DNA of 36,526 nucleotides from a virus: IMG/VR virus record IMGVR_UViG_3300030329_002446, positions 1-36,526 of that record. One strand, written 5' to 3'. The position numbers and the translations under genes are program-made. The stretch's first letter is position 1, and each line of letters opens with the position of its first letter. This document shows, piece by piece, positions 6,466-27,521 of this stretch. The notes below the pieces were generated by a model. The model made no database searches and was not told where the DNA came from. It saw only the letters and a list, made by a program, of their open reading frames with translations.

Positions 6466-6568
6466 GTGAGGATAGGGGTAGTGCCAGCAATGAGTTAAAT
6501 TGCCTAGAATTTGACGCTTTAGTTACCGTATTAAAGTAAGACATTGTGCTATGGCTCTCTATCCTCGC
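6466..6568 (+). ncRNA. Candidate structured RNA, long closing stem
   Basis: GTGAGGATAGGGG (6466-6478) pairs with TCTCTATCCTCGC (6556-6568) over 13 bp including three wobbles. After a TAGT bulge the stem continues as GCCA/TGGC (6483-6486/6552-6555). Inside are GCAAT/ATTGC (6487-6491/6499-6503, 7-base loop) and CTTTA/TAAAG (6517-6521/6532-6536). The segment carries no gene and lies just before a small membrane-protein gene. It could be a stand-alone small RNA, a processing site or a leader element. Confidence 0.5.
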
Positions 6569-6586
6569 AAGATTTATGAAAGAACT

Positions 6587-6733
6587 ATGTTAAAAACAAT
6601 AATAGTCGCAGGAGTTATAATTGCAATAATGGGAATGTACATTACATTCCTACACGGCATTATAGACGAGCTGCGTAAAAATAATAACGAACTTAAAAAA
6701 CAAAACAAAATACAAAAGTTAAGGTTACGTTAA
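6587..6733 (+). CDS. Small single-span membrane protein with coiled-coil tail
   Basis: A protein of 48 residues starting at ATG 6587 (MLKTIIVAGV). An in-frame ATG at 6551 lies inside the stem of the preceding RNA element and is less likely. Residues 4-24 are a transmembrane helix (TIIVAGVIIAIMGMYITF); the rest is a charged helix (DELRKNNNELKKQNKIQKLR). It ends directly against the AAA+ ATPase gene, so it may be co-expressed with it or be a membrane partner; that link is only positional. Confidence 0.55.
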   Translation: MLKTIIVAGVIIAIMGMYITFLHGIIDELRKNNNELKKQNKIQKLRLR

Positions 6734-8812
6734 ATGCATGAAATAACCGTTAAGGGCATACATAAGTCGCTTAATGAAAACGGATATATCTGCGGTGTAC
6801 CTTTTGCTGCTAGTATTACAAGTGCGATACAGACTAAACCAGTTAGTGGAGCATTTCTATACGGCCCAGCAGGTACAGGTAAAAGTTACCTTCCTATTGT
6901 TCTTAGCAAGACACTCGGAGTAGAAATGTTTTTCTATCAATGTGCTCCAGGAACAAGAGAAGATGACTTAGTGCTTAAGATGCTTCCTAGTGAAGTAACT
7001 AAAAGTGGCGTAGAGATTAAAAAATCAACCGTTTTCCAAGCTGCTGAGGCATCACATAAAAATAAAGTGATGCTAGTACTTGACGAGTGGGATAAAACAC
7101 GACCAACTGCTGATGGTTTCTTTTTAGATTTTCTTCAGTATGGGCGCTTATCAATCCCTGGAACTGATATAAATGCAAATCTTGATAATATGTTCATATT
7201 CTTCACTGCAAATGATGAACGTGAATTTCATGAAGCTTTGCTACGTAGATTTCCTAAGATTGATGTTAATCCGCTTGATTCAAGTCTTGTTATGTCAGCG
7301 TTAAGGTTAACTCACGATGGTCATCCGCATTTAGGTAATGCAATCAAGTTGTATGAGAAGGCTGTAATGAGCGGGATGTCAAAACCCGCAACAATACAGG
7401 AAATTAGACAACTTCTTGACGCTATTAGCTTTCTTGGTAAGGCAGCAGATTGGAATAGCTTGGTTTATCAGTTTATTACAAAAACACCTGAGAACCACAG
7501 TTTATTAAAAGATGCTCAAACATCCGAGTATGTACCTGAGAAGGATAATATTGCTGAATTAGACAGTAAGCGATTCGCAGGTGAGATAGTTGAGAAGAAA
7601 GTTGAGAAGAAGAAACTGATTATGCCAACTAAGATTGATTACCTAACTAAATCAAAGCCTATAGATGATGCTAAGGATATTCCTAGCGATGATGAAATCT
7701 ATGGCATTTATGACTATACTGATGAAAACTACTCTATGCTGGCACATCAAGATATGCAAAATCGTATCGCTAATAACGATGTTGCAATCGTGGATGACTT
7801 TGAGGTCATTCGCGGCAAATTAATACGTAAAAAACCTTATCAGCTTACAGATATTAACGAATCACAATATGCTAAGAGGGTCGATGGAGTTGCAGAAGTT
7901 GCTTATGTTGACAAGAACTGCACCTTCAAAGACTTAACTCGCATACCAAATTGGAAGTATTGGACAATACGTAGATATTCTAAAGATGAAGTTGTTGCTC
8001 GATATAGAACGAAGGAACAAGATGGAAGCGTAATTATGACAATAGATATGCGATGGACTAAGGATGAAGGAATTATTGTTATTGTTGCGGCTGAAAACAT
8101 TGTTAATAATACAGAGTTTTGGCGTCGTACTTCTAATGCTGGTCAGTTTGTGAATGTTAGTCAATTTGGTACTGATGAATCATCATTAGCCTTGTTTTCT
8201 AAAGCGTTAGATAATGGTAGAAGTAATGGTATACTTAATATACGCAATATTATAAACCACGATGGAATAGAATATTCTGCTATTATCAATGAGAACGTAT
8301 ACAGAGTAAGAGAGCTTGGATTATCTCAAATTGCTTCATCATCAACGGATATCATTAGAGACAGCGTATCTTCTACCTATATTGGTAAGGGATTCGAAGT
8401 TGGCATCTTTGGTAATGATTCAACTGACTATGCGATGGCATCAGTTAATATAACTGGTAATCCCACAAAACAAGCCCTTGAAGGTTTGTTTGCTTTGACG
8501 GTGAACTTATGTTCTATTAGTGGCGAGAGAAATGAATTGGGTATTCCTGTTTATAAAGCTGTAAAGGTAAATCAACGTAAATTAGCAAAACATTTGAAGA
8601 AGCGTGGATGGAGATTCTTAGGTTTAAGATTGGGAATGATGGGCAAGATGTATAAAAGCACGTCAAGCGTGTGTTATTGCTTTCTTTTTGAAAATCTTGC
8701 TATCTTTGGATTTCGATACAACTACAATAATGTTGCAAATAAATCACAAGCGTTCTCAAGAATGAGGCGTATTGTGTCACAGTTAGCGGAGGCTGCTTCA
8801 ATTCATGTCTAA
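6734..8812 (+). CDS. MoxR/CobS-like AAA+ ATPase with long C-terminal extension
   Basis: A 692-residue protein. The N-terminal 270 residues form an AAA+ module: Walker A GPAGTGKS (44-51), Walker B VMLVLDEWD (112-120), sensor-1 FFTAND (156-161) and an arginine-finger region ALLRRF (168-173). The order and spacing fit the MoxR/CobS group, which works with VWA-domain partners as a metal-insertion or protein-remodelling chaperone. Residues 300-692 form a large domain with no recognised family. The next gene overlaps by 8 bases and encodes a VWA-like protein, completing the typical pair. A role in cobalamin synthesis is unlikely in this context. Possible roles are virion or replisome remodelling, host inhibition or counter-defence; none is shown by the sequence. 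Confidence 0.85.
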   Translation: MHEITVKGIHKSLNENGYICGVPFAASITSAIQTKPVSGAFLYGPAGTGKSYLPIVLSKTLGVEMFFYQCAPGTREDDLVLKMLPSEVTKSGVEIKKSTVFQAAEASHKNKVMLVLDEWDKTRPTADGFFLDFLQYGRLSIPGTDINANLDNMFIFFTANDEREFHEALLRRFPKIDVNPLDSSLVMSALRLTHDGHPHLGNAIKLYEKAVMSGMSKPATIQEIRQLLDAISFLGKAADWNSLVYQFITKTPENHSLLKDAQTSEYVPEKDNIAELDSKRFAGEIVEKKVEKKKLIMPTKIDYLTKSKPIDDAKDIPSDDEIYGIYDYTDENYSMLAHQDMQNRIANNDVAIVDDFEVIRGKLIRKKPYQLTDINESQYAKRVDGVAEVAYVDKNCTFKDLTRIPNWKYWTIRRYSKDEVVARYRTKEQDGSVIMTIDMRWTKDEGIIVIVAAENIVNNTEFWRRTSNAGQFVNVSQFGTDESSLALFSKALDNGRSNGILNIRNIINHDGIEYSAIINENVYRVRELGLSQIASSSTDIIRDSVSSTYIGKGFEVGIFGNDSTDYAMASVNITGNPTKQALEGLFALTVNLCSISGERNELGIPVYKAVKVNQRKLAKHLKKRGWRFLGLRLGMMGKMYKSTSSVCYCFLFENLAIFGFRYNYNNVANKSQAFSRMRRIVSQLAEAASIHV

Positions 8813-9845
8813 GCTTATTAAACGAGATTGGAGAAATTGGAAACCACAGCAAACTCCGAGTGGTAAACGCCCAACACCAGGCTTTGATTCATTTCAAAGC
8901 TTGGGTGGGGGCGGTGATAAAAACGCTAAGGCTGTCAAACCTAAGATAGCTAAAAAGAAGGTGTTAAACGACAAGTTGCAAATAAAAAGTATAAAGAATA
9001 AAAATTTTACAAAATCAAAAGCATCAAGAACTAAATTATATGGCAACAAGTCAACTTTAAAGAACAAAAATTTTAATTTTAAAGCTCAAAATATGTCTGA
9101 AGACAGATTAGAGTATTTGCTTGATAGTTATGAGCAAAATAGAGATTGGTCGCATAATATAATTCGAGCTGAAAAAGCAGAGTATAAGAGAAACAAAGAC
9201 AGAGCTCCAAATATTATGACCAAAGCTAATGCAACAAGAGACAGAAGACTTTCATCATCTCTTGCTGTAATAATATCTAAATTAGCTGAAGATAAGACTG
9301 GTGAACCTATTATTGGCGAAGACGAATGGGATGTTCAAGAATTAATGATGCGTAGTATTACAAGACGTAATATTTATCATTGTATGCAGTCAAGAGAGCG
9401 TGAAAACATAGTATTGGTATTAGACAGCTCTCCAAGTTGTGAAAGGTCTGCTAAACTTTATGGTCAAATAGCATATCTATCTTGTAAGTTAGGTAATTTG
9501 GACATATACTTAGCCCCAAACGCCAGGTTAACCCATAAGATGAACGCTAAAACACACGAATATGAGAATATATTTAGCATGCCAGAAGATAAGAACTTAA
9601 TTGCTTGTCAGATGGATTCATTAAATAACTTTTTTCGCAATAGAGTTATATTGTTTTTTGGGGATTATGATGGAGTTAGGCATATTTGTTTAGCTTCGCA
9701 CAATAACGAAGTATATTGGCTCAACAATGATTACGAGGATGAATATGAGCATAAGAATCATTTGTACGACAGAAAATTTAATGGCACAGTATTTCAAGTG
9801 AATGATAGAAAAGACTTAATTAACGTAATAAGAAAGCTAAGGTGA
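8805..9845 (+). CDS. VWA-like (MIDAS) protein, partner of the MoxR-like ATPase
   Basis: A 346-residue protein. The first 95 residues are very basic and low in complexity (Lys/Asn/Gly), likely disordered or nucleic-acid binding. Residues 200-345 look like a von Willebrand A fold: strand NIVLVLDSSPS contains a MIDAS-type DxSxS (D207, S209, S211), and VILFFGDYDG (281-290) matches the strand ending in a metal-ligand Asp. ATG 8805 lies within the end of the ATPase gene, so the two are translationally coupled, as for RavA-ViaA and CobS-CobT pairs in bacteria. The VWA call rests on motif and context and is moderately secure. There are no transmembrane segments. Confidence 0.68.
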   Translation: MSKLIKRDWRNWKPQQTPSGKRPTPGFDSFQSLGGGGDKNAKAVKPKIAKKKVLNDKLQIKSIKNKNFTKSKASRTKLYGNKSTLKNKNFNFKAQNMSEDRLEYLLDSYEQNRDWSHNIIRAEKAEYKRNKDRAPNIMTKANATRDRRLSSSLAVIISKLAEDKTGEPIIGEDEWDVQELMMRSITRRNIYHCMQSRERENIVLVLDSSPSCERSAKLYGQIAYLSCKLGNLDIYLAPNARLTHKMNAKTHEYENIFSMPEDKNLIACQMDSLNNFFRNRVILFFGDYDGVRHICLASHNNEVYWLNNDYEDEYEHKNHLYDRKFNGTVFQVNDRKDLINVIRKLR

Positions 9846-9849
9846 ACAA

Positions 9850-10374
9850 ATGGACAATAGTAAAGATAGAGTAGCTCAACAAACAGTTGAAGTTACTTTA
9901 CAAATTCCACCTGGCGATTTCCGAAAAGTAGAGATAAATGATAAGCTACATATGAGCTTAAGTCATGATTTGGCTGAGTTTATGACCGCTAGTAAAGGAC
10001 AACCAGCTAAATTTTATATGATGGTAAAATTCTATTTATCTGAGCGTAAGGGATTGTACAGGGCAATAAAATCAAAGCATAAAGGCATGATTGGAGTGAT
10101 AGAAGCGTCTATGAATGCTACTATCGTATCTTTAATGACAGTAGCTCTTAATAATCAAATGGAGAATGTGATGGGTGGCGGAGATTTTCAAGCTGATGAA
10201 GAGTTACAAGGTTGCATTAAAGAACTTCGAGATGGTCTTAAATCAAAAGAGAGGATGCTTGATTTTGATAAATTTTGCAGTAAAAGATTTGATGTACATG
10301 CTATGGAAGCGTCTGTTTTTGGAACAGATGAAGGAAATATAGCTGTAGATAGTCATTTAGAAGCAAAATCTTAA
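9850..10374 (+). CDS. Hypothetical protein in the MoxR-VWA operon
   Basis: A 174-residue protein of unrecognised family starting 4 bases after the VWA-like gene. An N-terminal beta-rich part (VEVTLQIPPGDFRKVEINDK) is followed by helices and a central methionine-rich segment (GVIEASMNATIVSLMTVALN) that is amphipathic rather than clearly transmembrane. Its tight spacing makes it a candidate third component or substrate adaptor of the ATPase system; this is inferred from position only. Confidence 0.7.
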   Translation: MDNSKDRVAQQTVEVTLQIPPGDFRKVEINDKLHMSLSHDLAEFMTASKGQPAKFYMMVKFYLSERKGLYRAIKSKHKGMIGVIEASMNATIVSLMTVALNNQMENVMGGGDFQADEELQGCIKELRDGLKSKERMLDFDKFCSKRFDVHAMEASVFGTDEGNIAVDSHLEAKS

Positions 10375-10392: not shown

Positions 10393-11004
10393 ATGGGATA
10401 CGACCTATACGGTCTTAATCCATCAAGCTCTAAAATACCAGATTGCGACTTTACTGATGAAGAAACTACAAAAGCATATTTTGCTTGGCAAGATAACACA
10501 AAAGGAGCATATTTCAGAAATAATGTATGGTGGTGGGCTCCTCTGTGGGATTATGTTATAAAAGAATGTAGCGATATATTATCAGTAGCAGATGTAACTG
10601 GTGGCGGAAATAATGGTGGACATAAGATAAGTAAAACAAAAGCAAAAAAGATAGCTAGCAGATTGCGGAGTTTAGAAAAAAAGGGCGAAATTGAATCTTA
10701 CGCTAGTACCTATAAAAATAAACAAAGGTCTTTGCCTACTGAAAAATGTAACGTATGCAAAGGAACTGGTACAAGAAAAGAATGGGAAGGTTGGCAATCA
10801 GAAGAAAAGTGGCTAAAATATCATAAATCTCTTGAAAATGACAAATCGACAGGATATGAATGGGCGCATAAATGTAAGGGATGTAATGGTTGTAGTGGCA
10901 AAGGTATGGTAAAAAACTGGCAATCAAATTATCCGTTTGATTCAGAAAATGTAATGAACTTTGCAGATTTCTGTGAACATTCAGGCGGATTTCGTATTTG
11001 TTAA
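10393..11004 (+). CDS. Conserved phage-type protein with DnaJ-like zinc finger
   Basis: A 203-residue protein opening MGYDLYGLNP with an aromatic segment YFRNNVWWWAPLWDYV (51-66 region). This resembles a family of uncharacterised phage and bacterial proteins. Residues 115-172 hold CNVCKGTG and CKGCNGCSGKG, DnaJ-type CxxCxGxG zinc-binding repeats, which appear inserted before the terminal segment ENVMNFADFCEHSGGFRIC. AAAGGAG precedes the start. It is the last gene before the control region at 11.0 kb and could be an adaptor or chaperone-like partner of the upstream ATPase; its function is not known. Confidence 0.75.
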   Translation: MGYDLYGLNPSSSKIPDCDFTDEETTKAYFAWQDNTKGAYFRNNVWWWAPLWDYVIKECSDILSVADVTGGGNNGGHKISKTKAKKIASRLRSLEKKGEIESYASTYKNKQRSLPTEKCNVCKGTGTRKEWEGWQSEEKWLKYHKSLENDKSTGYEWAHKCKGCNGCSGKGMVKNWQSNYPFDSENVMNFADFCEHSGGFRIC

Positions 11005-11191: not shown

Positions 11192-11380
11192 ATGGGAAAC
11201 ATGAGAACTTTCAGATGCGATAACGAGACTTGGCGTAAATTCAAGTTACTTTGCACAATGCAAAATGTATCTATGCAAACACAACTTGGCAACCTTGTTG
11301 AGGATTTCGTTAAAAGCAAATCAATCAACACAGATAAGATGACAAATGGCACAGAGCTCAAAAGTCACTCAAATCTATGA
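11192..11380 (+). CDS. Ribbon-helix-helix-like DNA-binding protein
   Basis: A 62-residue protein. ATG 11192 (MGNMRTFRCD) is preceded by TGAGGAC; an in-frame TTG at 11180 overlaps that site and is rejected. A short strand (MRTFRCD) followed by two helices (ETWRKFKLLCTMQ and MQTQLGNLVEDFVKS) is the CopG/Arc-type ribbon-helix-helix plan. It is the first gene after a control region holding AGTATT-type dyads, so it may be the autoregulator that binds them and the similar sites at 3451-3522. It overlaps the next gene by 35 bases. Confidence 0.6.
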   Translation: MGNMRTFRCDNETWRKFKLLCTMQNVSMQTQLGNLVEDFVKSKSINTDKMTNGTELKSHSNL

Positions 11381-12104
11381 TGATTACGTTGCTCACCTAA
11401 ACGCTGAGAAATCAAAAAGATATGATGGAAAAGAAGAATGGTTTCATTCTTCATCAGCAGGTATGTGTGCACGTAAACACTATTATTCGTCTGTAGAAAA
11501 GGTACAAACTCCTGAAATAAAAGCTGATACATTACGATTGTTTAGGCTTGGAGATGTGATACACTCAGACATACAAGACGCGATTCAATGGTATGCATCA
11601 AACAATGGAGCTCGTATTTTTATAGAAAAAGAATTATATATACATGACTTAAATGTCAGAGGATTTATTGACTTAGTTATGATAGATGATGGTGTGCTTT
11701 ACGATATAAAATCTTGTAATTATTGGAAATGGCGAACAATATTCGGTAAAACATATTATGACCCAAATTCAGTAAAAAATTATATGATGCAAACAGCAAC
11801 CTACACTCATTGGTATAACATAAATAATCCTGCTCAACATTACTTAAATGATTATCCAAAAATAAAATCAATGGCATTATTGTTTTATAACAAGAATGAT
11901 TCTCAGATGCGAGAATTAGAAATTCCAATGTCTATGATAGATGAGGCTGTTGAGTATTGGCAAAGAGTAAATGAATCTGTAAAAGAAGGAGCTCCTCCGA
12001 TTGAACTTGGTTTTGCTCCTGTTCTAAAATGGGAGTGTAATGATAAATATTGTTCATACTTCGAAGCTTGTGGAGGAGGTTTAATTGGCCAGCAGAAGCA
12101 ATAG
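11346..12104 (+). CDS. RecB/Cas4-like PD-(D/E)XK nuclease with Fe-S cysteines
   Basis: A 252-residue predicted exonuclease. Catalytic elements in order are H73 in RLGDVIH, D109 in GFIDL, and D120-x-K122 in LYDIKS, followed by a helix with YMMQTATYTHW (QxxxY-like). C41 in AGMCARKHYYS, together with C231, C236 and C242 in the tail, matches the split 4Fe-4S ligand set of Cas4/AddB-type nucleases. Such enzymes resect DNA ends to give single-stranded tails. With the annealing-protein candidate 1.3 kb downstream this suggests a phage recombination pathway. No CRISPR array is present, so a Cas4 role in spacer acquisition is not indicated. Confidence 0.85.
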   Translation: MAQSSKVTQIYDDYVAHLNAEKSKRYDGKEEWFHSSSAGMCARKHYYSSVEKVQTPEIKADTLRLFRLGDVIHSDIQDAIQWYASNNGARIFIEKELYIHDLNVRGFIDLVMIDDGVLYDIKSCNYWKWRTIFGKTYYDPNSVKNYMMQTATYTHWYNINNPAQHYLNDYPKIKSMALLFYNKNDSQMRELEIPMSMIDEAVEYWQRVNESVKEGAPPIELGFAPVLKWECNDKYCSYFEACGGGLIGQQKQ

Positions 12105-13366: not shown

Positions 13367-13870
13367 ATGGCAGAAAAAAAGAATAAAAACAACAACTTGT
13401 TCTTATGGGAGCAGGTTGAAACTACTGACCCTGAGTTTACAACCAAAGTAAACCAGCGTGGTGGATTTACCGCTATTGGGGCTCAGTATCAAATTAAAAA
13501 TGCAACAGAAGTGTTTGGTGCTTTTGGTCATGGATTTGGAGTTAAAGACGAACAGTACACTCCAATACTAAATGATACACTTATTGTGTATACTGCAACA
13601 TTTTATTATAAATATGAAGATGAGGCTGGTGATGTAGAGGGAGAATTCCCTATTAGCAGTTCTATCAGAGTAATGATGGGTAGTAAACTTGATGACGATT
13701 GTATCAAAAAGGTACAGACAGATGCAATTACAAAAGGACTATCAAGACTTGGATTCAACGCTGATGTATTTATGGGTAGGTTTGATGGTAATAAATATGT
13801 TGATGCTAATGGTCAAAAGTTTGGTGGAGATACAGGAGTAGACGCAGATAATAAGGATGAGTGGATATGA
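13367..13870 (+). CDS. Candidate single-strand annealing protein (Rad52-like group)
   Basis: A 167-residue protein. WEQVETTDPEFTTKV (14-28), GGFTAIGAQYQIKNATEVFG (residues 32-51) and TDAITKGLSRLGFNADVFMG (119-138 region) resemble phage recombination proteins of the Rad52-type single-strand annealing superfamily, which include DUF1071-like members. Such proteins pair complementary single strands made by a phage exonuclease. The Fe-S nuclease lies upstream, and a DUF669-like partner and helicase follow. The C-terminus is Gly/Asp-rich and acidic (GGDTGVDADNKDEWI). The assignment is by remembered motif and context; a profile search would be decisive. Confidence 0.6.
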   Translation: MAEKKNKNNNLFLWEQVETTDPEFTTKVNQRGGFTAIGAQYQIKNATEVFGAFGHGFGVKDEQYTPILNDTLIVYTATFYYKYEDEAGDVEGEFPISSSIRVMMGSKLDDDCIKKVQTDAITKGLSRLGFNADVFMGRFDGNKYVDANGQKFGGDTGVDADNKDEWI

Positions 13871-14403: not shown

Positions 14404-14584
14404 GGTTGTACAATACTTACTTATACACGAATCAGCTAATGACTTGGATGTGTATATGTTAGGTATTCACAATATAAGTAGTACAATTAGAGAAGCGTTA
14501 AAATATGGATACAAAATAAAAAAGAAACATAGTGGAGTATTATGGAACAGAAGAACAACATATTACATGGAAACAATAAAATAG
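14384..14584 (+). CDS. Small winged-helix-like DNA-binding protein
   Basis: A 66-residue protein: HRVVQYLLIHESANDLDVYM, then LGIHNISSTIREALKYGYKI, then a likely wing strand (HSGVLWNRRTTYYME). This is the helix-turn-helix plus wing plan of short phage DNA-binding proteins. ATG 14384 is preferred because the fold begins there, although an in-frame ATG at 14372 is possible; neither has a strong ribosome binding site. It overlaps both neighbours (20 and 43 bases). It may load or position the helicase encoded next; that is inference. Confidence 0.55.
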   Translation: MDKETHRVVQYLLIHESANDLDVYMLGIHNISSTIREALKYGYKIKKKHSGVLWNRRTTYYMETIK

Positions 14585-15894
14585 TGGCACAATCTTTACC
14601 ACATTCTTATGAAATAGAAAAGGAATTGCTTGGTCAGATGATATTAGATAATTCTATTATTGATAAAATAATGCATTACATACCATCTGAAACAGTATTC
14701 TATAATGATTTTCATCGTAGCGTGTGGAGGGGTATACTAGATTTAAGGAAAAAAGGCACAGATGATATATCTATCAACTCTCTTGTAGCTGAAGTACCTC
14801 CATCAATAGCTACAAAAGAAATAGCATATAATTTAACTGGTTTAATAGATGTGGTAACGACATCAACCCATGAAAACAATGCTAAAATTTTATATGAAAA
14901 GTGGTTGCTTAGAAATGTAATCATAAAATCAGAGGAAGTTAAGGGTGTTATCAATGTAAAGAACTCAGATGCTAGGGGTGTATTAGAACAACTACATAGA
15001 GAAATTGAAAGTGTTCTTGATATGCAGATTGGTAATGGTTTTGATATTGATGGACTATTGGATGAAACATTTGAAAAGATGTTTGATGAAGATGCGTTGG
15101 TTAGGTTTGGATATCCTGAACTGGATGAACTTACTGGTGGAATGACAAGAGGAGAGATAACAGTTATTGCTGGTAGACCTGGTCATTTCAAATCAACAAC
15201 TATGTTAAATGTTGTTCGCAATCTTATACATAGTGGATATAAAGTTTTAGTGATGAACCGAGAAATGAGTAATGTAGAAATGATGAAGAAGCTCATTGTA
15301 TTAGAGTCTGAAAAGTTATCTTATGAGAAGATACGTATTGGAGAATTAGATGAAAATGATAGTAAGATGCTCGAAGAATCAAAGAAAAATATTAGAGATA
15401 AGTACAGAAATCTCATTATGTATGATAACATATTTGACATTGATGGTTCAATGCGTGAGATAAGAAAACATTCTCCTGATGTTGTTGTAGATGATTACAT
15501 TGGATTGGTAAGCGTGTCTGGTGTCGATGACAATAGATTACGTATTGATAATATCATGAAACAATATAAATGGGCAGCTAAAAAGAACAATATGGCTGTA
15601 CTATTGGTATCACAACTTAATCGTGAGTGTGAATCAAGAGCAAACAAAAGACCATTACTTAGAGATTTAAGAGATAGTGGTTCTATTGAACAGGACGCTG
15701 AAATTATATTGTTTATGTATTACGAATGGAGATATTATCTACAAGAATCTGATATGGGAGAATATGGAATTGAGATTATACTTGGAAAGAATAGATACGG
15801 TAAGAGTGGCAGAGTTAAAATGGGTGTCGCAGGAGACCGTTGTAAGATATACTCATCATCAGAAGAAGCATTAACGGAGGTGTTTAATGGCTAA
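14542..15894 (+). CDS. DnaB-type replicative helicase
   Basis: A 450-residue hexameric 5'-3' helicase of usual family length. The N-terminal helical domain (residues 20-125, EIEKELLGQMILDNSIIDKI) is followed by a RecA-like core. Walker A is GRPGHFKST (211-219), with His-Phe where most DnaB proteins have other residues; Walker B is DVVVDDYIGL (313-322). The motif LVSQLNRECESR and the following LRDLRDSGSIEQDAEIILFM are typical DnaB motifs. GTGGAG precedes ATG 14542. No primase or DNA polymerase is visible in the window, so the phage may rely on host enzymes or encode them in the missing part. Confidence 0.93.
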   Translation: MEQKNNILHGNNKIVAQSLPHSYEIEKELLGQMILDNSIIDKIMHYIPSETVFYNDFHRSVWRGILDLRKKGTDDISINSLVAEVPPSIATKEIAYNLTGLIDVVTTSTHENNAKILYEKWLLRNVIIKSEEVKGVINVKNSDARGVLEQLHREIESVLDMQIGNGFDIDGLLDETFEKMFDEDALVRFGYPELDELTGGMTRGEITVIAGRPGHFKSTTMLNVVRNLIHSGYKVLVMNREMSNVEMMKKLIVLESEKLSYEKIRIGELDENDSKMLEESKKNIRDKYRNLIMYDNIFDIDGSMREIRKHSPDVVVDDYIGLVSVSGVDDNRLRIDNIMKQYKWAAKKNNMAVLLVSQLNRECESRANKRPLLRDLRDSGSIEQDAEIILFMYYEWRYYLQESDMGEYGIEIILGKNRYGKSGRVKMGVAGDRCKIYSSSEEALTEVFNG

Positions 15895-17479: not shown

Positions 17480-18427
17480 ATGAAAAATGAAATATTACAA
17501 GGCGATGTAATCGCTAGATTAAAAGATATACCTGATGACTATGTTCAGATGGTTTGCACAAGTCCGCCGTACTGGGCCTTAAGAGACTATGGAGAAGAGG
17601 GTCAGTTCGGATTGGAAGCTACTCCTGAACTGTATGTAGAAAAATTAGTCGAGATTGGTAAAGAGCTAAAACGTGTATTGCGTAAAGATGGTACGTTCTG
17701 GTTAAATCTTGGAGATACATATTGGGGAGGCGGATGGAGAGGAGCTGAACTAAATGACAATAGTGGAGAAGTTCAAAAAGCTCATGAAGGTACTCATTGT
17801 GGAGATTCAATGACAATGGGTAAAGGCTCTCATGATGTTATCAAGACTAAGGATATGGTAGGTATACCATGGCGTTCAGCATTTGGATTACAATCAGATG
17901 GGTGGTATCTAAGACAAGATATCATATGGAACAAACCTAATCCAATGCCTGAATCTGTTACTGACAGATGTACTAAGGCTCATGAATATATATTCTTGAT
18001 GTCAAAGTCTAAAAATTATTATTATGATGCGAATGCAATTAAGCAACCATACCGAGAGAATACCAAGCCAGGCTCCCAATTCGGTGGTAAGAAGGGTAAC
18101 TCAGAACTTGGCATGAAGACCAAGTTACAGAAATCAGAACAAGGTTTCTTTGAAATGAAAGATGGAGCAAATATGAGAAGTGTATGGACAATTCCTGTTC
18201 AACCATTCAAAGGAGCACATTTTGCCACATTCCCTCCAAAACTACCTGAACTATGTATCAAAGCTGGTTCTAAAAAGGGAGACATTGTATTAGACCCATT
18301 CTTCGGTAGTGGCACGACAGGATGGGTTGCTCAAAGACTTGGAAGAAAATGGTTAGGTATTGAACTAAATCCTGACTACGTTAAAATAGCAAAAGAAAGA
18401 TTTCAACAACAGGAGTTATTTGTATGA
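17480..18427 (+). CDS. Site-specific DNA methyltransferase (SPPY class, beta order)
   Basis: A 315-residue S-adenosylmethionine-dependent DNA methyltransferase. Catalytic motif TSPPYW (27-32) comes before the cofactor motif DPFFGSGTT (272-280), the beta-class order. The region between (about 85-225) would hold target recognition. SPPY with a following aromatic is typical of N4-cytosine enzymes and some N6-adenine ones, so the modified base is not certain. No restriction enzyme gene is adjacent, so this looks like an orphan phage enzyme that protects phage DNA from host restriction. It has its own candidate promoter and dyad but a poor ribosome binding site. Confidence 0.92.
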   Translation: MKNEILQGDVIARLKDIPDDYVQMVCTSPPYWALRDYGEEGQFGLEATPELYVEKLVEIGKELKRVLRKDGTFWLNLGDTYWGGGWRGAELNDNSGEVQKAHEGTHCGDSMTMGKGSHDVIKTKDMVGIPWRSAFGLQSDGWYLRQDIIWNKPNPMPESVTDRCTKAHEYIFLMSKSKNYYYDANAIKQPYRENTKPGSQFGGKKGNSELGMKTKLQKSEQGFFEMKDGANMRSVWTIPVQPFKGAHFATFPPKLPELCIKAGSKKGDIVLDPFFGSGTTGWVAQRLGRKWLGIELNPDYVKIAKERFQQQELFV

Positions 18428-21128: not shown

Positions 21129-24100
21129 CTATCTTGATGGCCCAGGAAATGGGTCTAAGTCGTATTTTGAGCCATACTTGCTAATTGCAGCATTCCAAGC
21201 TCTTAGTTGTTTGGTATATTCATTTTCAATATACATCTCATCTTTTCTTGATTTAGGGTCAAGTTTAGACATATATATTTCATATCTTGTTTTAGCTCCT
21301 GTTGTTCTTTTTCTCCATGAACTTGGTATAGGTCTTTGAGCTGAAACAACAGTCTTTAAATTTGTTCTTGCAAGTTTCTTTGCCTTATGTGGAATTTTCT
21401 TTAAAGATGGGTCTTTATTAATCTCATGCTGAGCAATATAATTTCTAGCAGCGTAATACACACGAGCTTTTTCTTCTTCATTATCTGACCAAAATACCTC
21501 TTTAACCGCTCTGTAATATGGGCTCTTAGTTGTTAAGGTAGATAACTCACCTCCAAGAAAAGGCTTATCTCTAAAGTATACATCAGTAAACTGTCTTTGT
21601 CTACGTCTTGAATCATTCAACGATTTTTTCAATGGTCTATTTGATTTTTCCCATAGCTTTATCAACCTATTAAATAATACAACATTCTCAGAAGCTAAAT
21701 CTTTTAATGATTGGTCTATAAATTTCTTTCCAGTAAGAGTTGCGAATAAATTTTTAACCAACGACTCAACCGTTCTGTAAACAGCTGGTTTATACGATTC
21801 AACTACGTTACCATAGTCATCAAAAGCATTACTAAAAGACGCAAGTCCTTCAGCTTTTAAAGCTAACTCAAAATATTTATCACCACTTGCTTTGAATTGA
21901 TTTCTTTGTTCTTCATTAAACGCTGCGTAGTGAGCATGAAATATAGCAGCCCCACTTATAGGTAATAAACTAGCATATCTAACAAGAGGAACAGGATTTC
22001 CATCGGCTACCAATGGTTTAATAACAGAGTTAGCTACATTTTCTGTCATTCTATAAGCAACCCTATAAAACAATGTAAGTGGTTTTGACCAATTCTTACC
22101 CATCCATTGAGGAACAAATGGTAAACTTGGGCCACCTTGAGTTATTAAATGAGCCATTTGTTGAGCTCTTTGAATATAATCAGGTCTTTCAGATAATCTG
22201 TGACTACCTAGTTTTTTCATAAAAGCTATCTCAGCGTCAGTAAACTTAAACACATCTGTTAAAGTACGCATAGATGTATTTTCTGATACACCACGATTCA
22301 TAATATTTTTGATTCCATTAAGATTGTCAATATGAGTTCTTAATGCAGGTTCTCCTATTGATGTACTAATAATACGGTTCATAACCTCTGTAATTCTCAT
22401 CATACCTGGATTGTATTTAGAATAAACAATACGACCAGTCATAAGTTCATGGACACCTGCTTCTTTACCACCGATTCTACCTGTTAAAGTAGACATCGCT
22501 TTTCTATCAGCTAAGGCATTATACATTCCATTAGCAGCGAGTCTAAATCCAAATACTGTAGCATTACTTTGTTGGCCTAATAGGAAGTTCTTATATCCTG
22601 AAAATGGAGAAGATAATCCTATTTGGGCGGTGGTCATCGTTAAGTTTCTTATAGCGCTATCATACCATTTATTCTTTTGGACAGCATTAAGTTGTAAGGC
22701 CAATGACTCATGAGCCCATCCAGCAAATGACTCATCAGTTTCAAGAGCTAACCTATCCCTTTCTTTTAAAATCTTTTCGCTCTCAGCTCCTCCCTTACCA
22801 AAGAACTGAAATGTTGGAGCAATATGAGCAACCTTTTGACCATATCTTGAAATAATCTTATCAAAACTTCTTTCATATACATTAATCACTTTACCAACAG
22901 ATTTACGTTCTCCCCTAGCGTCTATAACAGTAGATTTCTTTGATACAGGATTACCATTGATATCTTTAAATCCTTTTAAGCTTATAATTTTATTTGTATT
23001 TGCTTCTAAAGCAATGATAGGAGGAAGATTGGCAATCCTAGTATACTGAGTTCCAAAAACACCAGCCTGGTCTCTCCAAAACTTATCAACATTATTTAAA
23101 TATCTTTTCGCAGCTTCTAATTTCTCCAATGGAGTTGCTTTCAAATTCTTAAACTGAGGGTCTGTTGAAGCAACAACCCAAGCCATTCCTTCTCTGAACT
23201 GCTTATTAAAAGCCATCATCTCTCTAAACTCATCTGTAATAATACGAGAAAGAAAATTTTTCTCTATATGGTGATTAAATTTACCAGACTCTCCATCTTT
23301 ATTGTGAACCTTAACATATTTATCGGACGCTGATTTAAAGTTTTTATTCTCTACTGTACCCTTGCCCAACATAATTGTTTTAACAGTATTTCTATCTTTC
23401 CATTCAAATACATATCTATTATTACCTTCTATGTACCATCCTCCGTCAAATTTTCCAGTATCTTTATTTAACTTCCTTAAACTTTTAACATATTCAAAAG
23501 GAAATGCATCAGTTTCTACATTAACAACTTTACCATCTACCATCTTTGCTGTTTCAGCGTTTTTAGGACGAGTTAAATTTCCATTACTATCTAAAAACTC
23601 TATTCCCTCAACCAATCTAATTGCATCATATGCATTTGCAAGTTCTATACGTTTTCCATTTCTATCATACGCTTCAAACAATGGCTCATATTTAGCATTT
23701 CTTGTAGCCGCATTACGAACTTCAACACCACTCGGTATAAGATATTCTGCAAGAACTTTATTTCGAAAAGCTGTGTATGTCTTAATAATTTCCTCATTAG
23801 GAAGCTTATCCATTAGTTTAGGATTATACCAATCACTATACTTTTTATCTATAATAGTAGAAATATTATCAAATTGTTTTGTAGTAAGATTAAATCCTTC
23901 CTTTAGACTTATCTTAAATTGGGAAAAATCACCAGTAATCAACTGTCTTGTTAATTCATGGTTTATCATATTTCTTCCCCACATACTAGCAATACGTGAC
24001 CTTGCCATTTGTAAAGTTGTATATACAGGTAGAGCAGCTTTAGCAGCTCCCATCTTAAACCTTTGCCACTTAGATTTTGTGTTACTCGCCATACTTACTG

Positions 24101-27100
24101 GGGGCACCATAGATGACATTTTATCTTGATATACTTTCGTATTACCTTCATTACTCAATAAAGCAGTTGCAACTTGAGCTTCTTCAAAGGTCATATTTTT
24201 TGACGAGCCACGACTTTCAGGAAACCATTCACTTAATAAATATTTATATTCTTCATCAGGTATACCCTGTTCTCTCTGTGCTTTCTTTAATGCACCTCTT
24301 TGTTGTTCAAATAATCTTTTTTCTGGGCCTTCTAGATTAGATATTTTACGAGATAGATTTGTAATAATACTTTCAACAGATTCGGAATTTATCCAATAAT
24401 CATTTGCAAATCTTTCAGCTTCTTCTCTTGTTTTGAACGTAGCAACTTTACCATCTTTCATTCCTCTTCGAGTTATGGTTGTTATCTTACTTCCTTTTCT
24501 AGAATCCCACTTAAAATTAACCGCCCAAGGAGCGTCATTTTGAGGGTTAAGTTCAGGATATGAATCATATATCTCTTTATCAATAAGAGCTTTTCTATCC
24601 ATTTTATTCATATCAGGCCAATTCTCAACTCTAGCTCCTTGAAATTGACTAAATTCTTGTCTTTCTTTTTCTCTTTTAACCTGCAAAGATTCTGCTATTG
24701 ACTCCATCTTTTCACGCTGATATCTTTGAATTAATTCAGGAGTAGCTTCTCCTTCAGGAAAAGCTTTTTCACCTGACTTAACCATCTTTCCTTCTGTTTC
24801 TGAATATCTTGCAGGTAATTCTATCTTTTTTAATCTAGATGGAGCATAGAAAAAATATTCTTTTTCTTTTGTAACAGGAATTTTATCAAAAACAATTCGA
24901 TTATACCTACCTCCACGCTTAAATCCATCCCATAATTCTTTAACTGAGCCTTTATATCCAGATTTAACAGCATCTTCATGTACTCTTTTAAAATCAGCAG
25001 TCATCCAAGGATTTTTTGTCTTAGCTCCATAATAACTAGCTACATTTTCTTCCCAACTTCTTTGATAAAAAGAAACGTCGCTAGCTGTATTTCTAAAATT
25101 CTCCGCAGCTGTATTACCCATTACATCCTTTGATTGGATTGCAAATTTACCCTTACCTTTAGTATATGTATATTTTCTTGTATCCTTAAATCCTGTTTCT
25201 TTTACAGATTGAGATAGTTCAGATGAACTTGGGCCTCTTGTAGATGTTTCTTCTACAATTACACTTTTTAATTCCTTAGCTCCTCCCCTTGGGGTATCTG
25301 TGAATAATTCTTTAAATATTGGATTCTTTGGATTATACCGACTTACTGGTTCTCTTCCTATATACTCTGTTCTAATAATAGGATTTTCTGATAACTCTTT
25401 AAATCTAGGATTATTTTCAGCATATTCAAGTAATGGTCTATCAGCCTCATTAGCTTTTACAATCGCTTCGTATACTTTTTTAGGTATCTTTCCACCTATA
25501 GCAACCCTAGCAGTTCTTGAGCCTCCGTGAGTCTTAATTTCAAATACAGGTATATCTCTAAAATAGTTACCATATTTTTTAGGTTCTCTTTTCATCCATT
25601 CTGGCATAATAATGTCTTTTTTATTTCTAAATTGGCCTAATTGTCCAATATATTTACCTACACCAGCTTTAGTATAGTCTAATTTACCAAGAGTAGAATC
25701 ATATTTAGGTATTTTTACAATCTCTCCAACTTCAAAATTTCCAGCAGGTTGAACTACAAAATCGCCCTTATCAACTGAAACCTCTTGACGAGCCTGCTCT
25801 AACTTTAATTCAGCATCACGCAATCTTCCTTCAGCTGATGTTATATCTTTATTATATTTATTTTTTAAATAATTTGGATTAATTTTACCTTCTGAGAGTT
25901 GCTGTTTGTAGGTTTCTTTTAAATTTACAATATCATTTTGCAACCTAGAAACTCTTCCACTCCAATGATTAACATCTGCAAGTCCAGTAGTTCTTTCAAA
26001 TGGAGTTTTGATAGTTTCGGTTACAGAAGATTGAGGAAGTTCGTAAACCTCTTTATCTCTTGAAGAGACCATAGCGTCTCTCATAATATTTTCTTGAGCT
26101 TTTAATCTAGTTAATTCAACTTTTTCTTCTGGAGTCAGATTTTTCCCAGTAATACGTTCTCTTAGTGGAGATATATTTTTACTAAACTTCTTATTTATAT
26201 TTCTCATAACATCTGGTCTAGAATCCCCTGTCACAGCAAATACCTCACCAGTATCTAATTCTTGAACCAAACCTCTATGTTTTTCTGTTTTTCCTTCAAC
26301 AGGAGCTTCAACTCGTATCAGCTGAACCTTTCTATCTGGATTTCTTCTATCTGAATAAGTAGGATATTTCAAAGCTTCTTTTAGTGAAGCGGTGATGACA
26401 TTATCCATACCTTTAGTATCCATAACAGAATTAAGTCTAGCTTCTGAAAGTTTTGGGTTAGCAAGTCTAAGAGCAGTTCCAATCTTTTCTTTTAAATGTA
26501 ATTTCCCAAGTCCTTGCCTTGCGTAGTGAAATCCTACTAAAGACGCTCCATGAATTAGTCTTTCTTCAAGAGACATATCAGTTTGACCAAGGTCTGAATA
26601 CATACCAGCTCCAAGCAGAGCCCCAGGCTCTACTCCATATTTAACACCCTTAGAAGCATATCCTAACATAGTTGGAAGACCAGCGACAGAGAATACAACA
26701 CTCGAAGCTGTATCCATTCCTAATTGCTCAAGTCTACCTTCTAATTTATCATATGGAAGTTTGGTTTGTCCGTACAAGGCAAATGTACCAACGTTGTTGG
26801 CAAAAAGATTTAAGGCTCTTGCGTGTTTTGGATTCTTTTCAGCGAGTTTTAATATTCTTTCACGGTATGGAGCTATTCTACCAAGTATACCAGTACCGCT
26901 TAATTGACCAATTTGTTTAGACACTATAGCGCTTGCAAATATCTCATCATTTTTTCTTGCAAAATGGCCCGCCCTATCCATGATTTTATCAGCTAAATCA
27001 GTTCTTCCACGCTTCTTAGCTGCTTTAGCAAGTTTAATTAATTTTGAAAATTGATTATATTTTCTTACAACATTAGCTCCACCAGCAGCAACTCCAACTC

Positions 27101-27521
27101 CACCAGTTAAGAAAGAGAATGGTAACATACCAGCTACAGCTCCACCTAATCCCCCAAGAGCCTCAGCCCATAATTCAGAAGATTCATCAGCGGGGGTATA
27201 TTGGGACTCCATTGTTCCAAAGTGAGGAACTGCTGATAATTTAGCACTGTCCCAAAATCTCTGCCAAAATGTAGCATCTCTATATGCTCTATCTGGCTCC
27301 ATACTACCTATCTCATTAGAATTTCTTTCAGCTCTATCATAATCAGTTTCTGCAAATCCAACATCAATACCAGGTAATCCTTGAGTTGTATCTATTTTAT
27401 TAGCAACAGCATCTACCCACAGACCGTGTACTTCTTCTTGTGAAGGTTGATTATAGGCATCGACTGAGAATCGATATCCATTATATTCTATGTCATAACG
27501 ATATAATTGTTGTTGAGGCAT
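21129..27521 (-). CDS. Giant putative internal virion/DNA-ejection protein (2130 aa)
   Basis: The largest gene, about 17% of the window. A hydrophobic Gly/Ala-rich segment (121-150, GGLGGAVAGMLPFSFLTGGV) near the N-terminus and mixed helical, Lys/Arg-rich sequence through most of the length resemble giant internal virion proteins of podovirus-like phages, which form an ejection conduit, and polyvalent multidomain phage proteins. There are few cysteines and no signal peptide. No catalytic motif could be named: a lysozyme or transglycosylase signature was looked for and not identified. Its place at the end of the structural block beside coiled-coil proteins supports an ejection role; a multi-toxin polyprotein is a less likely alternative. 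Confidence 0.72.
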   Translation of the reverse strand: MPQQQLYRYDIEYNGYRFSVDAYNQPSQEEVHGLWVDAVANKIDTTQGLPGIDVGFAETDYDRAERNSNEIGSMEPDRAYRDATFWQRFWDSAKLSAVPHFGTMESQYTPADESSELWAEALGGLGGAVAGMLPFSFLTGGVGVAAGGANVVRKYNQFSKLIKLAKAAKKRGRTDLADKIMDRAGHFARKNDEIFASAIVSKQIGQLSGTGILGRIAPYRERILKLAEKNPKHARALNLFANNVGTFALYGQTKLPYDKLEGRLEQLGMDTASSVVFSVAGLPTMLGYASKGVKYGVEPGALLGAGMYSDLGQTDMSLEERLIHGASLVGFHYARQGLGKLHLKEKIGTALRLANPKLSEARLNSVMDTKGMDNVITASLKEALKYPTYSDRRNPDRKVQLIRVEAPVEGKTEKHRGLVQELDTGEVFAVTGDSRPDVMRNINKKFSKNISPLRERITGKNLTPEEKVELTRLKAQENIMRDAMVSSRDKEVYELPQSSVTETIKTPFERTTGLADVNHWSGRVSRLQNDIVNLKETYKQQLSEGKINPNYLKNKYNKDITSAEGRLRDAELKLEQARQEVSVDKGDFVVQPAGNFEVGEIVKIPKYDSTLGKLDYTKAGVGKYIGQLGQFRNKKDIIMPEWMKREPKKYGNYFRDIPVFEIKTHGGSRTARVAIGGKIPKKVYEAIVKANEADRPLLEYAENNPRFKELSENPIIRTEYIGREPVSRYNPKNPIFKELFTDTPRGGAKELKSVIVEETSTRGPSSSELSQSVKETGFKDTRKYTYTKGKGKFAIQSKDVMGNTAAENFRNTASDVSFYQRSWEENVASYYGAKTKNPWMTADFKRVHEDAVKSGYKGSVKELWDGFKRGGRYNRIVFDKIPVTKEKEYFFYAPSRLKKIELPARYSETEGKMVKSGEKAFPEGEATPELIQRYQREKMESIAESLQVKREKERQEFSQFQGARVENWPDMNKMDRKALIDKEIYDSYPELNPQNDAPWAVNFKWDSRKGSKITTITRRGMKDGKVATFKTREEAERFANDYWINSESVESIITNLSRKISNLEGPEKRLFEQQRGALKKAQREQGIPDEEYKYLLSEWFPESRGSSKNMTFEEAQVATALLSNEGNTKVYQDKMSSMVPPVSMASNTKSKWQRFKMGAAKAALPVYTTLQMARSRIASMWGRNMINHELTRQLITGDFSQFKISLKEGFNLTTKQFDNISTIIDKKYSDWYNPKLMDKLPNEEIIKTYTAFRNKVLAEYLIPSGVEVRNAATRNAKYEPLFEAYDRNGKRIELANAYDAIRLVEGIEFLDSNGNLTRPKNAETAKMVDGKVVNVETDAFPFEYVKSLRKLNKDTGKFDGGWYIEGNNRYVFEWKDRNTVKTIMLGKGTVENKNFKSASDKYVKVHNKDGESGKFNHHIEKNFLSRIITDEFREMMAFNKQFREGMAWVVASTDPQFKNLKATPLEKLEAAKRYLNNVDKFWRDQAGVFGTQYTRIANLPPIIALEANTNKIISLKGFKDINGNPVSKKSTVIDARGERKSVGKVINVYERSFDKIISRYGQKVAHIAPTFQFFGKGGAESEKILKERDRLALETDESFAGWAHESLALQLNAVQKNKWYDSAIRNLTMTTAQIGLSSPFSGYKNFLLGQQSNATVFGFRLAANGMYNALADRKAMSTLTGRIGGKEAGVHELMTGRIVYSKYNPGMMRITEVMNRIISTSIGEPALRTHIDNLNGIKNIMNRGVSENTSMRTLTDVFKFTDAEIAFMKKLGSHRLSERPDYIQRAQQMAHLITQGGPSLPFVPQWMGKNWSKPLTLFYRVAYRMTENVANSVIKPLVADGNPVPLVRYASLLPISGAAIFHAHYAAFNEEQRNQFKASGDKYFELALKAEGLASFSNAFDDYGNVVESYKPAVYRTVESLVKNLFATLTGKKFIDQSLKDLASENVVLFNRLIKLWEKSNRPLKKSLNDSRRRQRQFTDVYFRDKPFLGGELSTLTTKSPYYRAVKEVFWSDNEEEKARVYYAARNYIAQHEINKDPSLKKIPHKAKKLARTNLKTVVSAQRPIPSSWRKRTTGAKTRYEIYMSKLDPKSRKDEMYIENEYTKQLRAWNAAISKYGSKYDLDPFPGPSR

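Follow-up and report, generated by a model that had tools for sequence, protein, structure and literature searches.

The viral record IMGVR_UViG_3300030329_002446 of IMG/VR, analyzed over its whole length of 36,526 bases (the window), encodes an apparent MoxR-type AAA+ ATPase and, in the overlapping next gene, a putative VWA-type partner. The function that we infer for this pair, at a probability of roughly 0.45, is the remodeling of a DNA-replication or recombination complex of the phage. Related viral contigs keep both genes, their order, and their catalytic and metal-site residues. They also display a clear pattern of selection: the AAA core is strongly conserved, and the C-terminal arm of the ATPase, the N-terminus of its partner, and the next gene change fast. 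The first-pass annotation of this DNA had suggested an undescribed phage system. The ATPase/VWA family and the C-terminal arm are indeed new, but viral MoxR/CobS-VWA/CobT pairs are already in print. The family is considered new because the libraries searched hold no curated entry for it and the arm was found only in this lineage.

A conserved gene pair

The ATPase gene (6734..8812, plus strand, 692 residues) and the gene for the VWA-type partner (8805..9845, plus strand, 346 residues) share 8 bases, as previously described. A GGAGG inside the ATPase gene (8788..8792, plus strand) is the likely ribosome site of the VWA gene and lies 12 bases before the second ATG, at the start of that gene.

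A search of viral contigs found 11 related loci with the ATPase and 8 with the partner. The survey for the adjacent pair that the annotation had proposed gave a consistent answer: the VWA gene comes next after the ATPase in all 8 contigs that extend beyond it, 2 of which stop inside the VWA gene. Three further contigs stop inside the ATPase gene. One contig is a near-identical relative (98-99% to the window). In the 7 other pair-bearing contigs, the ATPase is 48-63% and the VWA protein 38-50% identical to the window, one of the 7 having a VWA stub of only 24 residues at 75% identity. Across ATPase loci other than the near-identical contig, identity is 48-73% over the part covered, with the exception of locus L008 (95% over residues 1-338). 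Since the pair and its order are kept in eight of eight contigs, their association goes beyond chance.

Among 50,697 records of named phages, the ATPase has one match, confined to the AAA part, to a gene annotated as an ATP-dependent protease, and the stretch inspected there has no annotated VWA gene; the VWA protein has no match there at E<=1. Contigs of bacterial and archaeal genomes contain at least three loci that match the ATPase at 24-25% identity, in the AAA region only.

The ATPase is a MoxR-type AAA+ protein

The AAA+ large subdomain (residues 1-180; 6734..7273, plus strand) contains Walker A at 44-51, Walker B at 113-118, sensor 1 at N160, and an arginine finger at R171/R172. A helical lid follows (residues 181-262; 7274..7519, plus strand), with sensor 2 at R225; these residues probably still belong to the AAA module, as indicated by a fold match to NorQ over residues 19-254 and by invariance. 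An alignment of 12 sequences, the window among them, shows no variation at Walker A, the DE of Walker B, N160, R171/R172, or R225, and the GPAGTGKS, VMLVLDEWD, and FFTAND motifs noted earlier are all present.

Pfam AAA_5 matches the ATPase at E 8.3e-11. Its plasmid relatives comprise 27 records, 18 of them labeled MoxR, 1 CO dehydrogenase subunit D, 2 AAA family, and 6 unannotated. A hidden Markov model (HMM) of the AAA part was run against 17 hand-picked comparators, including three plasmid genes picked since they already matched. The top three scores outside the lineage belong to MoxR-type genes: a Gloeobacter plasmid gene (66.9 bits), a Thermovibrio gene (63.8), and a Microvirga MoxR gene (33.9). 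Escherichia coli ClpA is fourth through its second domain (27.4), phage CobS proteins score 1-11, the phage clamp loader gp44 scores 7.3, and E. coli RavA is last (-0.9). Structural comparison with VIA-align superposes residues 19-254 of the predicted AAA module on NorQ (Z 9.7, root-mean-square deviation (rmsd) 7.4 A), and CbbQ matches at Z 9.2.

The labels of the plasmid matches and the HMM ranking among the chosen comparators place the ATPase in the MoxR clade rather than in another AAA+ group, the point on which the annotation had left its assignment to be checked. Sequence comparison thus supports a MoxR-type AAA+ protein, although within MoxR it appears far from RavA and CobS, with ClpA nearer than those. 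Matches to the PHROG families "clamp loader" and "porphyrin biosynthesis" are confined to the AAA part. Residues 71-97, where a helix-2 insert was sought, have a predicted local distance difference test score (pLDDT) below 50 in the model.

The partner resembles a VWA protein

The strongest support for the identity of the partner is its likeness in sequence to the proteins encoded beside the plasmid ATPases, which points to a VWA domain. Profile comparison of phage and plasmid partners extends over 157 columns (P 6e-4, although prob is only 28). Six residues are invariant across four phage and two plasmid partners, and five of the six make up DxSxS and DxD. The DxSxS motif of a putative metal-ion-dependent adhesion site (MIDAS), D207, S209, and S211 (9423..9437, plus strand), was placed by alignment and does not vary in any of the eight phage sequences, one of them the window, or in either plasmid partner. 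The later metal-site residues, D287-x-D289 (9663..9671, plus strand), follow a later strand and are invariant in the seven phage sequences that span the site and, again, in both plasmid partners. The DxSxS strand and later metal-ligand strand first noticed in this protein are therefore borne out by alignment.

Predicted structure is in part consistent with this assignment. The model of the partner has a mean pLDDT of 58, with block means of 67-85 over residues 201-310, and its strand order fits a VWA domain. Structural neighbors include MIDAS domains of midasin (6qta; Z 7.4 over 164 residues at 3.7 A). The fold matches also list chain G of NorQD complexes. A beta hairpin is predicted at residues 244-255 (9534..9569, plus strand; strands 244-247 and 252-255) and is a candidate "finger" for the ATPase pore. 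At its base lies T243, which is invariant in all eight phage sequences and is not common to the plasmid partners. In NorQ/NorD, a finger of the VWA domain enters the pore of the ring, according to passages of PMC13036017 and PMC9976466; by analogy, the hairpin may be the counterpart of the NorD finger.

The N-terminus of the partner (residues 1-140; 8805..9224, plus strand) has a conserved RxWRNW start and is modeled mostly at low confidence. Its lysine richness, already remarked on, is real: net charge is +12 to +22 in six of the seven sequences counted (+22 in the window) and 0 in the seventh. Family searches add little. The VWA protein of the window has no match in Pfam (E<=10), NCBIfam (E<=1), or PADLOC (E<=0.01) and none in PHROG better than E 0.27; a Pfam scan of eight family partners gave VWA_CoxE in one, at E 0.28. 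The proposal of a MoxR-like ATPase with a coupled VWA partner is nonetheless favored by the plasmid relatives, the HMM ranking, the fold matches to NorQ and CbbQ (with ClpA level), and the predicted VWA-type topology with its conserved DxSxS and DxD.

The C-terminal arm of the ATPase

The annotation had pointed to an unrecognized extension of ~390 residues on the ATPase. Unrecognized it remains, but the boundary moves: because the NorQ fold match reaches residue 254, in a model of low confidence, the extension proper is placed at about residues 263-692. It begins with an acidic, variable linker (residues 263-375; 7520..7858, plus strand), delimited by charge and model confidence, with a net charge of -1 to -15 in all nine sequences. 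Here the ATPase model has a pLDDT under 50 up to residue 310 and block means of 49-71 over 321-390. The model is confident from about residue 390, block means over 391-692 being 55-92 and mostly 76-92.

Three units are predicted beyond the linker from secondary structure. The first (residues 384-464; 7883..8125, plus strand), the second (residues 512-591; 8267..8506, plus strand), and the third (residues 604-691; 8543..8806, plus strand) all have the order beta-alpha-beta4-alpha; the third is basic and includes a strand only two residues long. The stretch 597-692, which spans the third unit, carries a net charge of +6 to +14 in nine of nine sequences; the first unit is weakly basic in eight of nine and the second basic in three of nine. 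Profile comparison detected no similarity between the three units.

A strand, a helix, four strands, and a helix make up the topology that SCOP describes as that of the TATA-binding protein (TBP). In a Foldseek search of the PDB, 21 of the 50 rows listed fit TBP (14 by title, 2 titled "double stranded DNA binding protein", and 5 that are chains of TBP size in initiation complexes). Five of the 21 reach E<=0.001. The best has E 6.2e-4 and probability 0.97; template modeling scores by target are 0.17-0.30 and rmsd is 11-13 A across these rows. A viral structure library added giant-virus TBP at E 1.1e-3 and 4.5e-3 (probability 0.44 and 0.77). The Foldseek output gives no query ranges and so does not localize the TBP rows directly; they are assigned to the extension because the AAA module does not resemble TBP. 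The matches listed by VIA-align were all to AAA proteins.

Membership of the TBP family was rejected on sequence. PF00352 (TBP) is found neither in the window record nor in a Pfam scan of eight family members, and comparisons of the extension with TBP profiles were null, as was a shuffle control. Compared with PDB sequences, the extension has nothing better than E 0.13 (Flpp3). A resemblance to TBP in fold alone is accordingly a lead from modeling. A pattern-based search found the extension in 10 loci, all on contigs already known for this ATPase.

A proposed remodeling mechanism

By the precedent of its family, the ATPase would form a hexameric ring. The VWA protein would dock on this ring, probably through its C-terminal VWA domain with the hairpin in the pore, and would hold the target through its metal site, as NorQ/NorD suggests. 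ATP hydrolysis would then twist or pull the target. The three-unit arm and the basic N-terminus of the VWA protein would supply binding to the target or to DNA. As the target we favor a protein, or a complex of protein and DNA, that belongs to the replication and recombination machinery of the phage itself; genes for this machinery follow in the same direction. The fast-changing arm may help the ATPase act on DNA-replication proteins.

Evolution of the cassette

The two ends of the ATPase evolve very differently. Comparison of the window with loci L003, L013, L005, and L015 gives nonsynonymous divergence (dN) of 0.03-0.06 and synonymous divergence (dS) of 0.66-1.20 for the AAA part (residues 1-180); with L016, dN is 0.16 and dS is saturated. 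The low dN relative to dS indicates that this part is held by selection. For the arm (residues 401-692), dN is 0.58-0.80 and dS runs from 1.6 to saturated. The N-terminus of the VWA protein has dN of 0.68-1.04 and its VWA domain 0.27-0.47.

Conservation of the genes around the pair is also uneven. Between L003 and the window, terS, a phosphoesterase, Cas4, and a 167-residue protein are 86-95% identical, the small upstream genes and a 203-residue gene are intermediate (54-74%), as is the ATPase (63%), and the VWA protein (50%) and a 174-residue protein (42%) are lower. Locus L008 (IMGVR_UViG_3300006924_001180) matches L015 at ~99-100% identity over most of the part that ends at ~4835, apart from ~390 bases of L015 that are absent from L008 within that part. 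From the start of the ATPase cassette, identity of L008 to the window is instead 95% across 1,180 bases, against 55-90% to L015, until the contig stops within the ATPase. The switch in nearest relative falls between ~4835 and 4886 of L008, and the window-like segment begins at window position 6569. A 60-residue open reading frame directly 5' of the ATPase gene (6551..6733, plus strand) lies mostly within this common segment. The switch suggests an exchange of the cassette between phages or, alternatively, an assembly chimera.

These patterns bear on a different proposal, that the pair is a remodeler for host takeover or counter-defense, its ring acting on a host protein that varies, with specificity supplied by the arm, the N-terminus of the VWA protein, and the 174-residue protein. 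The contrast in dN between arm and AAA part fits this idea, as does L003, where the VWA and 174-residue proteins have the lowest identity among the genes compared, and so would the switch in L008 at the start of the cassette. The ATPase also has sub-threshold, AAA-level matches to two defense-linked models: NCBIfam MadB (9e-8, with 31.6 bits where the cut-off is 475) and PADLOC PDC-M37B (6.8e-5). Against it, the partner and the next two genes have no PADLOC match, and the L008 switch could be an assembly artifact. Moreover, the close pair L014/L015 has dN/dS of ~0.2 over residues 401-692 and ~0.3 over 263-400, so no positive selection is shown. We regard a host target as somewhat unlikely. Still, the fast-evolving arm would suit it too, which counts against a target in phage replication.

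Genomic setting

Remodeling of a phage replication or recombination complex draws on the genes that follow the pair; those given with coordinates as far as DnaB are all on the plus strand. Next after the VWA gene, in the six contigs that reach it, is a 174-residue gene of no family (9850..10374). Its product evolves as fast as the VWA protein (29-42% identity in five contigs, 98% in the near-identical one) and has no match in PHROG, NCBIfam, Pfam, or PADLOC scans. The 174-residue protein is a possible third part, or target, of the pair. A 203-residue gene (10393..11004) has a weak match to the DnaJ-type CxxCxGxG zinc finger (E 0.0011, below the Pfam cut-off) and is 52-66% identical in the six related contigs that reach it, the near-identical one apart. 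Weak PHROG matches also link its product to tail assembly chaperone and antitermination families.

Family matches identify a Cas4-like PD-(D/E)XK nuclease (11346..12104) and a DnaB-like replicative helicase (14542..15894). Between them lie a 167-residue protein (13367..13870), matching two PHROG families labeled exonuclease and one of unknown function, and a 180-residue gene that separates it from DnaB. The order ATPase-VWA-174-203-Cas4 is kept in six of six contigs reaching that far, and DnaB lies further downstream in all five of these that reach it. A DNA methyltransferase is found at window positions 17480-18427 (phrog_67, 3e-78). On the structural side, a 2,130-residue gene occupies 21129-27521 on the minus strand; the first 800 residues of its product have no PHROG match at E<=0.01. 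Labels for head, lysis, and internal-virion proteins fall on the minus strand at 31-34 kb and 0.9-1.7 kb.

This layout argues against a chaperone of virion assembly, which would act as the ATV proteins p618/p892 do in tail development. ATV provides a viral MoxR/VWA pair with biochemical data, according to passages of PMC4124505. The pair in the window lies on the plus strand among replication genes, with virion-type labels on the minus strand elsewhere, and a role in virion assembly is quite unlikely.

Relation to known MoxR/VWA and CobS/CobT systems

Outside viruses, the closest relatives found are plasmid-borne MoxR/VWA pairs, again of two genes. In Gloeobacter morelensis and Thermovibrio ammonificans (L049:3261-5869 and L050:3525-5971), the ATPase gene likewise precedes the partner gene, overlapping it by 4 bases, and these ATPases are the two with the highest AAA HMM scores outside the phage lineage. 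They are shorter (324 and 274 residues) and lack the arm of the phage ATPase. Their partners, annotated hypothetical, are longer (545 and 541 residues) with long, different N-termini, and display DVSGS and a later [GT]DWD[GA] where the phage partner has G/S-D-x-D-G. One matches VWA_CoxE at E 0.0022, below the Pfam cut-off, and the other at 0.2. In Microvirga, a third relative, an annotated VWA gene adjoins the MoxR gene. Relatives of one plasmid partner were sought in the viral contigs and none was found. Upstream of the Gloeobacter pair are a type I-D cas3 gene and a gene for a DNA methyltransferase.

NorQ and CbbQ provide the best fold matches to the phage AAA module. NorQ is a single AAA+ module that lacks an arm like that of the phage ATPase, NorQD acts on nitric oxide reductase, and the N-terminal domain of NorD is a different one (PMC9976466 and PMC13036017, passages). 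Among viral systems, passages of PMC4124505 present ATV p618 as a MoxR ATPase that has additional helices at its C-terminus and is paired with a VWA protein, in this respect like the phage pair; p618 is a virion component with a role assigned in tail development, and the likeness is one of description only. Adjacent AAA and vWA genes are reported in passages on Hardycor1 (PMC7911831), and a two-subunit MoxR-type chaperonin in passages on phage 0305phi8-36 (PMC2147016). Passages of PMC8651126 report cobST pairs in tailed viruses of eight orders and interpret them as B12 genes; viral cobST also appears in passages of PMC9503304. None of the open-licence papers listed in literature searches was recognized as an account of the present family or of a phage AAA+/TBP-like fusion.

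Phage CobS and CobT likewise form a viral pair of AAA and VWA genes, in many cases close to replication genes. Searches of the 50,697 phage records turned up CobS-like genes in 468 with one query and in 496 with another, and CobT-like genes in 81 with a single query. The stretch shown carries an annotated gene for replication or recombination in 9 of 12 named-phage CobS/CobT pairs inspected (Syn19, P-RSM6, S-SSM6a, ICP2, BUCTxx99, Mae-Yong1326-1, Nican01, RHph_X66, and SSU5), a count that has no background rate and that includes several related phages, from genomes rich in replication genes. No such gene appears for Woes, Jumbo, or CRP-810, whose repair glycosylase and integrase were not counted. 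BUCTxx99, P-RSM6, and S-SSM6a have a partner annotated as hypothetical and Syn19 one annotated as a peptidase; these partners were counted as CobT-type by alignment. The CobS-like genes of Cece and Phendrix have no annotated CobT alongside. Some CobT/CobS-type pairs lie among ligase, primase, DNA polymerase, or clamp genes (L026:1070-4376, L037:3445-6840, L040:5989-9667, and similar); such settings would fit a role in replication as well as or better than vitamin-B12 synthesis.

The partner itself was rejected as a CobT. Phage CobT proteins are larger, and likeness to them is limited to DxSxS (hhalign prob 2). The Pfam domain CobT_C is present in phage CobT of ICP2 (7.6e-29) and BUCTxx99 (8.5e-30) and absent from the window partner and seven aligned relatives in a Pfam scan. 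This Pfam test alone is not decisive, since the Syn19 partner also lacks a match.

Metal insertion in the manner of the cobaltochelatase CobS/CobT or of NorQ/NorD, boosting a cofactor enzyme of the host, has been considered for this pair. The AAA profile does match phage CobS (prob 97 and E 5.6e-11, a comparison in which no other AAA family served as control), the module has the NorQ fold match, and phage cobST has been so interpreted in passages of PMC8651126. But the partner departs from CobT as just described, the AAA HMM gives phage CobS only 1-11 bits and the two plasmid MoxR genes 64-67, and no metalloenzyme label occurs among the window proteins searched, a subset of its genes. The annotation had mentioned metal insertion as one role of such pairs; nothing found supports it in particular, and we judge it very unlikely here.

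Points against the assignment

Several observations weigh against a MoxR-VWA remodeler, beyond the limits of the 9-of-12 count and the ambiguity of the arm. The AAA module is predicted poorly (block-mean pLDDT 24-72). ClpA matches its fold at Z 9.6, level with NorQ at 9.7, is the best PDB sequence match of the ATPase (E 0.0055), and ranks above phage CobS and RavA in the HMM comparison. For the partner, the canonical MIDAS threonine was not found at its usual place, where alignment shows no conserved threonine. Foldseek of the VWA model gave no match at E<=0.001 (best 7.8e-3), and chains of the unrelated HPRT score Z 6.0 against it. Although the ClpA matches and the missing threonine would suit a Clp-like unfoldase whose neighbor is not a functional VWA protein, that interpretation is highly improbable, as the two plasmid MoxR genes score far higher by HMM and phage and plasmid partners have DxSxS and DxD in common.

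Implications

A broader, and unlikely, extension of the replication reading is that viral MoxR-VWA pairs in general, cobST included, are remodelers of the replisome or recombinosome. In the present lineage, the ring would bear DNA-binding arms of TBP fold and would load, strip, or reposition replication proteins on phage DNA. The predicted TBP-like arm, if structure confirms it, would to our knowledge be the first on an AAA+ ring. The pair is also a reason to look again at whether phage cobST genes serve vitamin-B12 synthesis. MoxR-VWA machines are widespread, and few have known targets. In this compact phage version the target may be encoded in the same gene cluster, which would make the question of the target directly testable.

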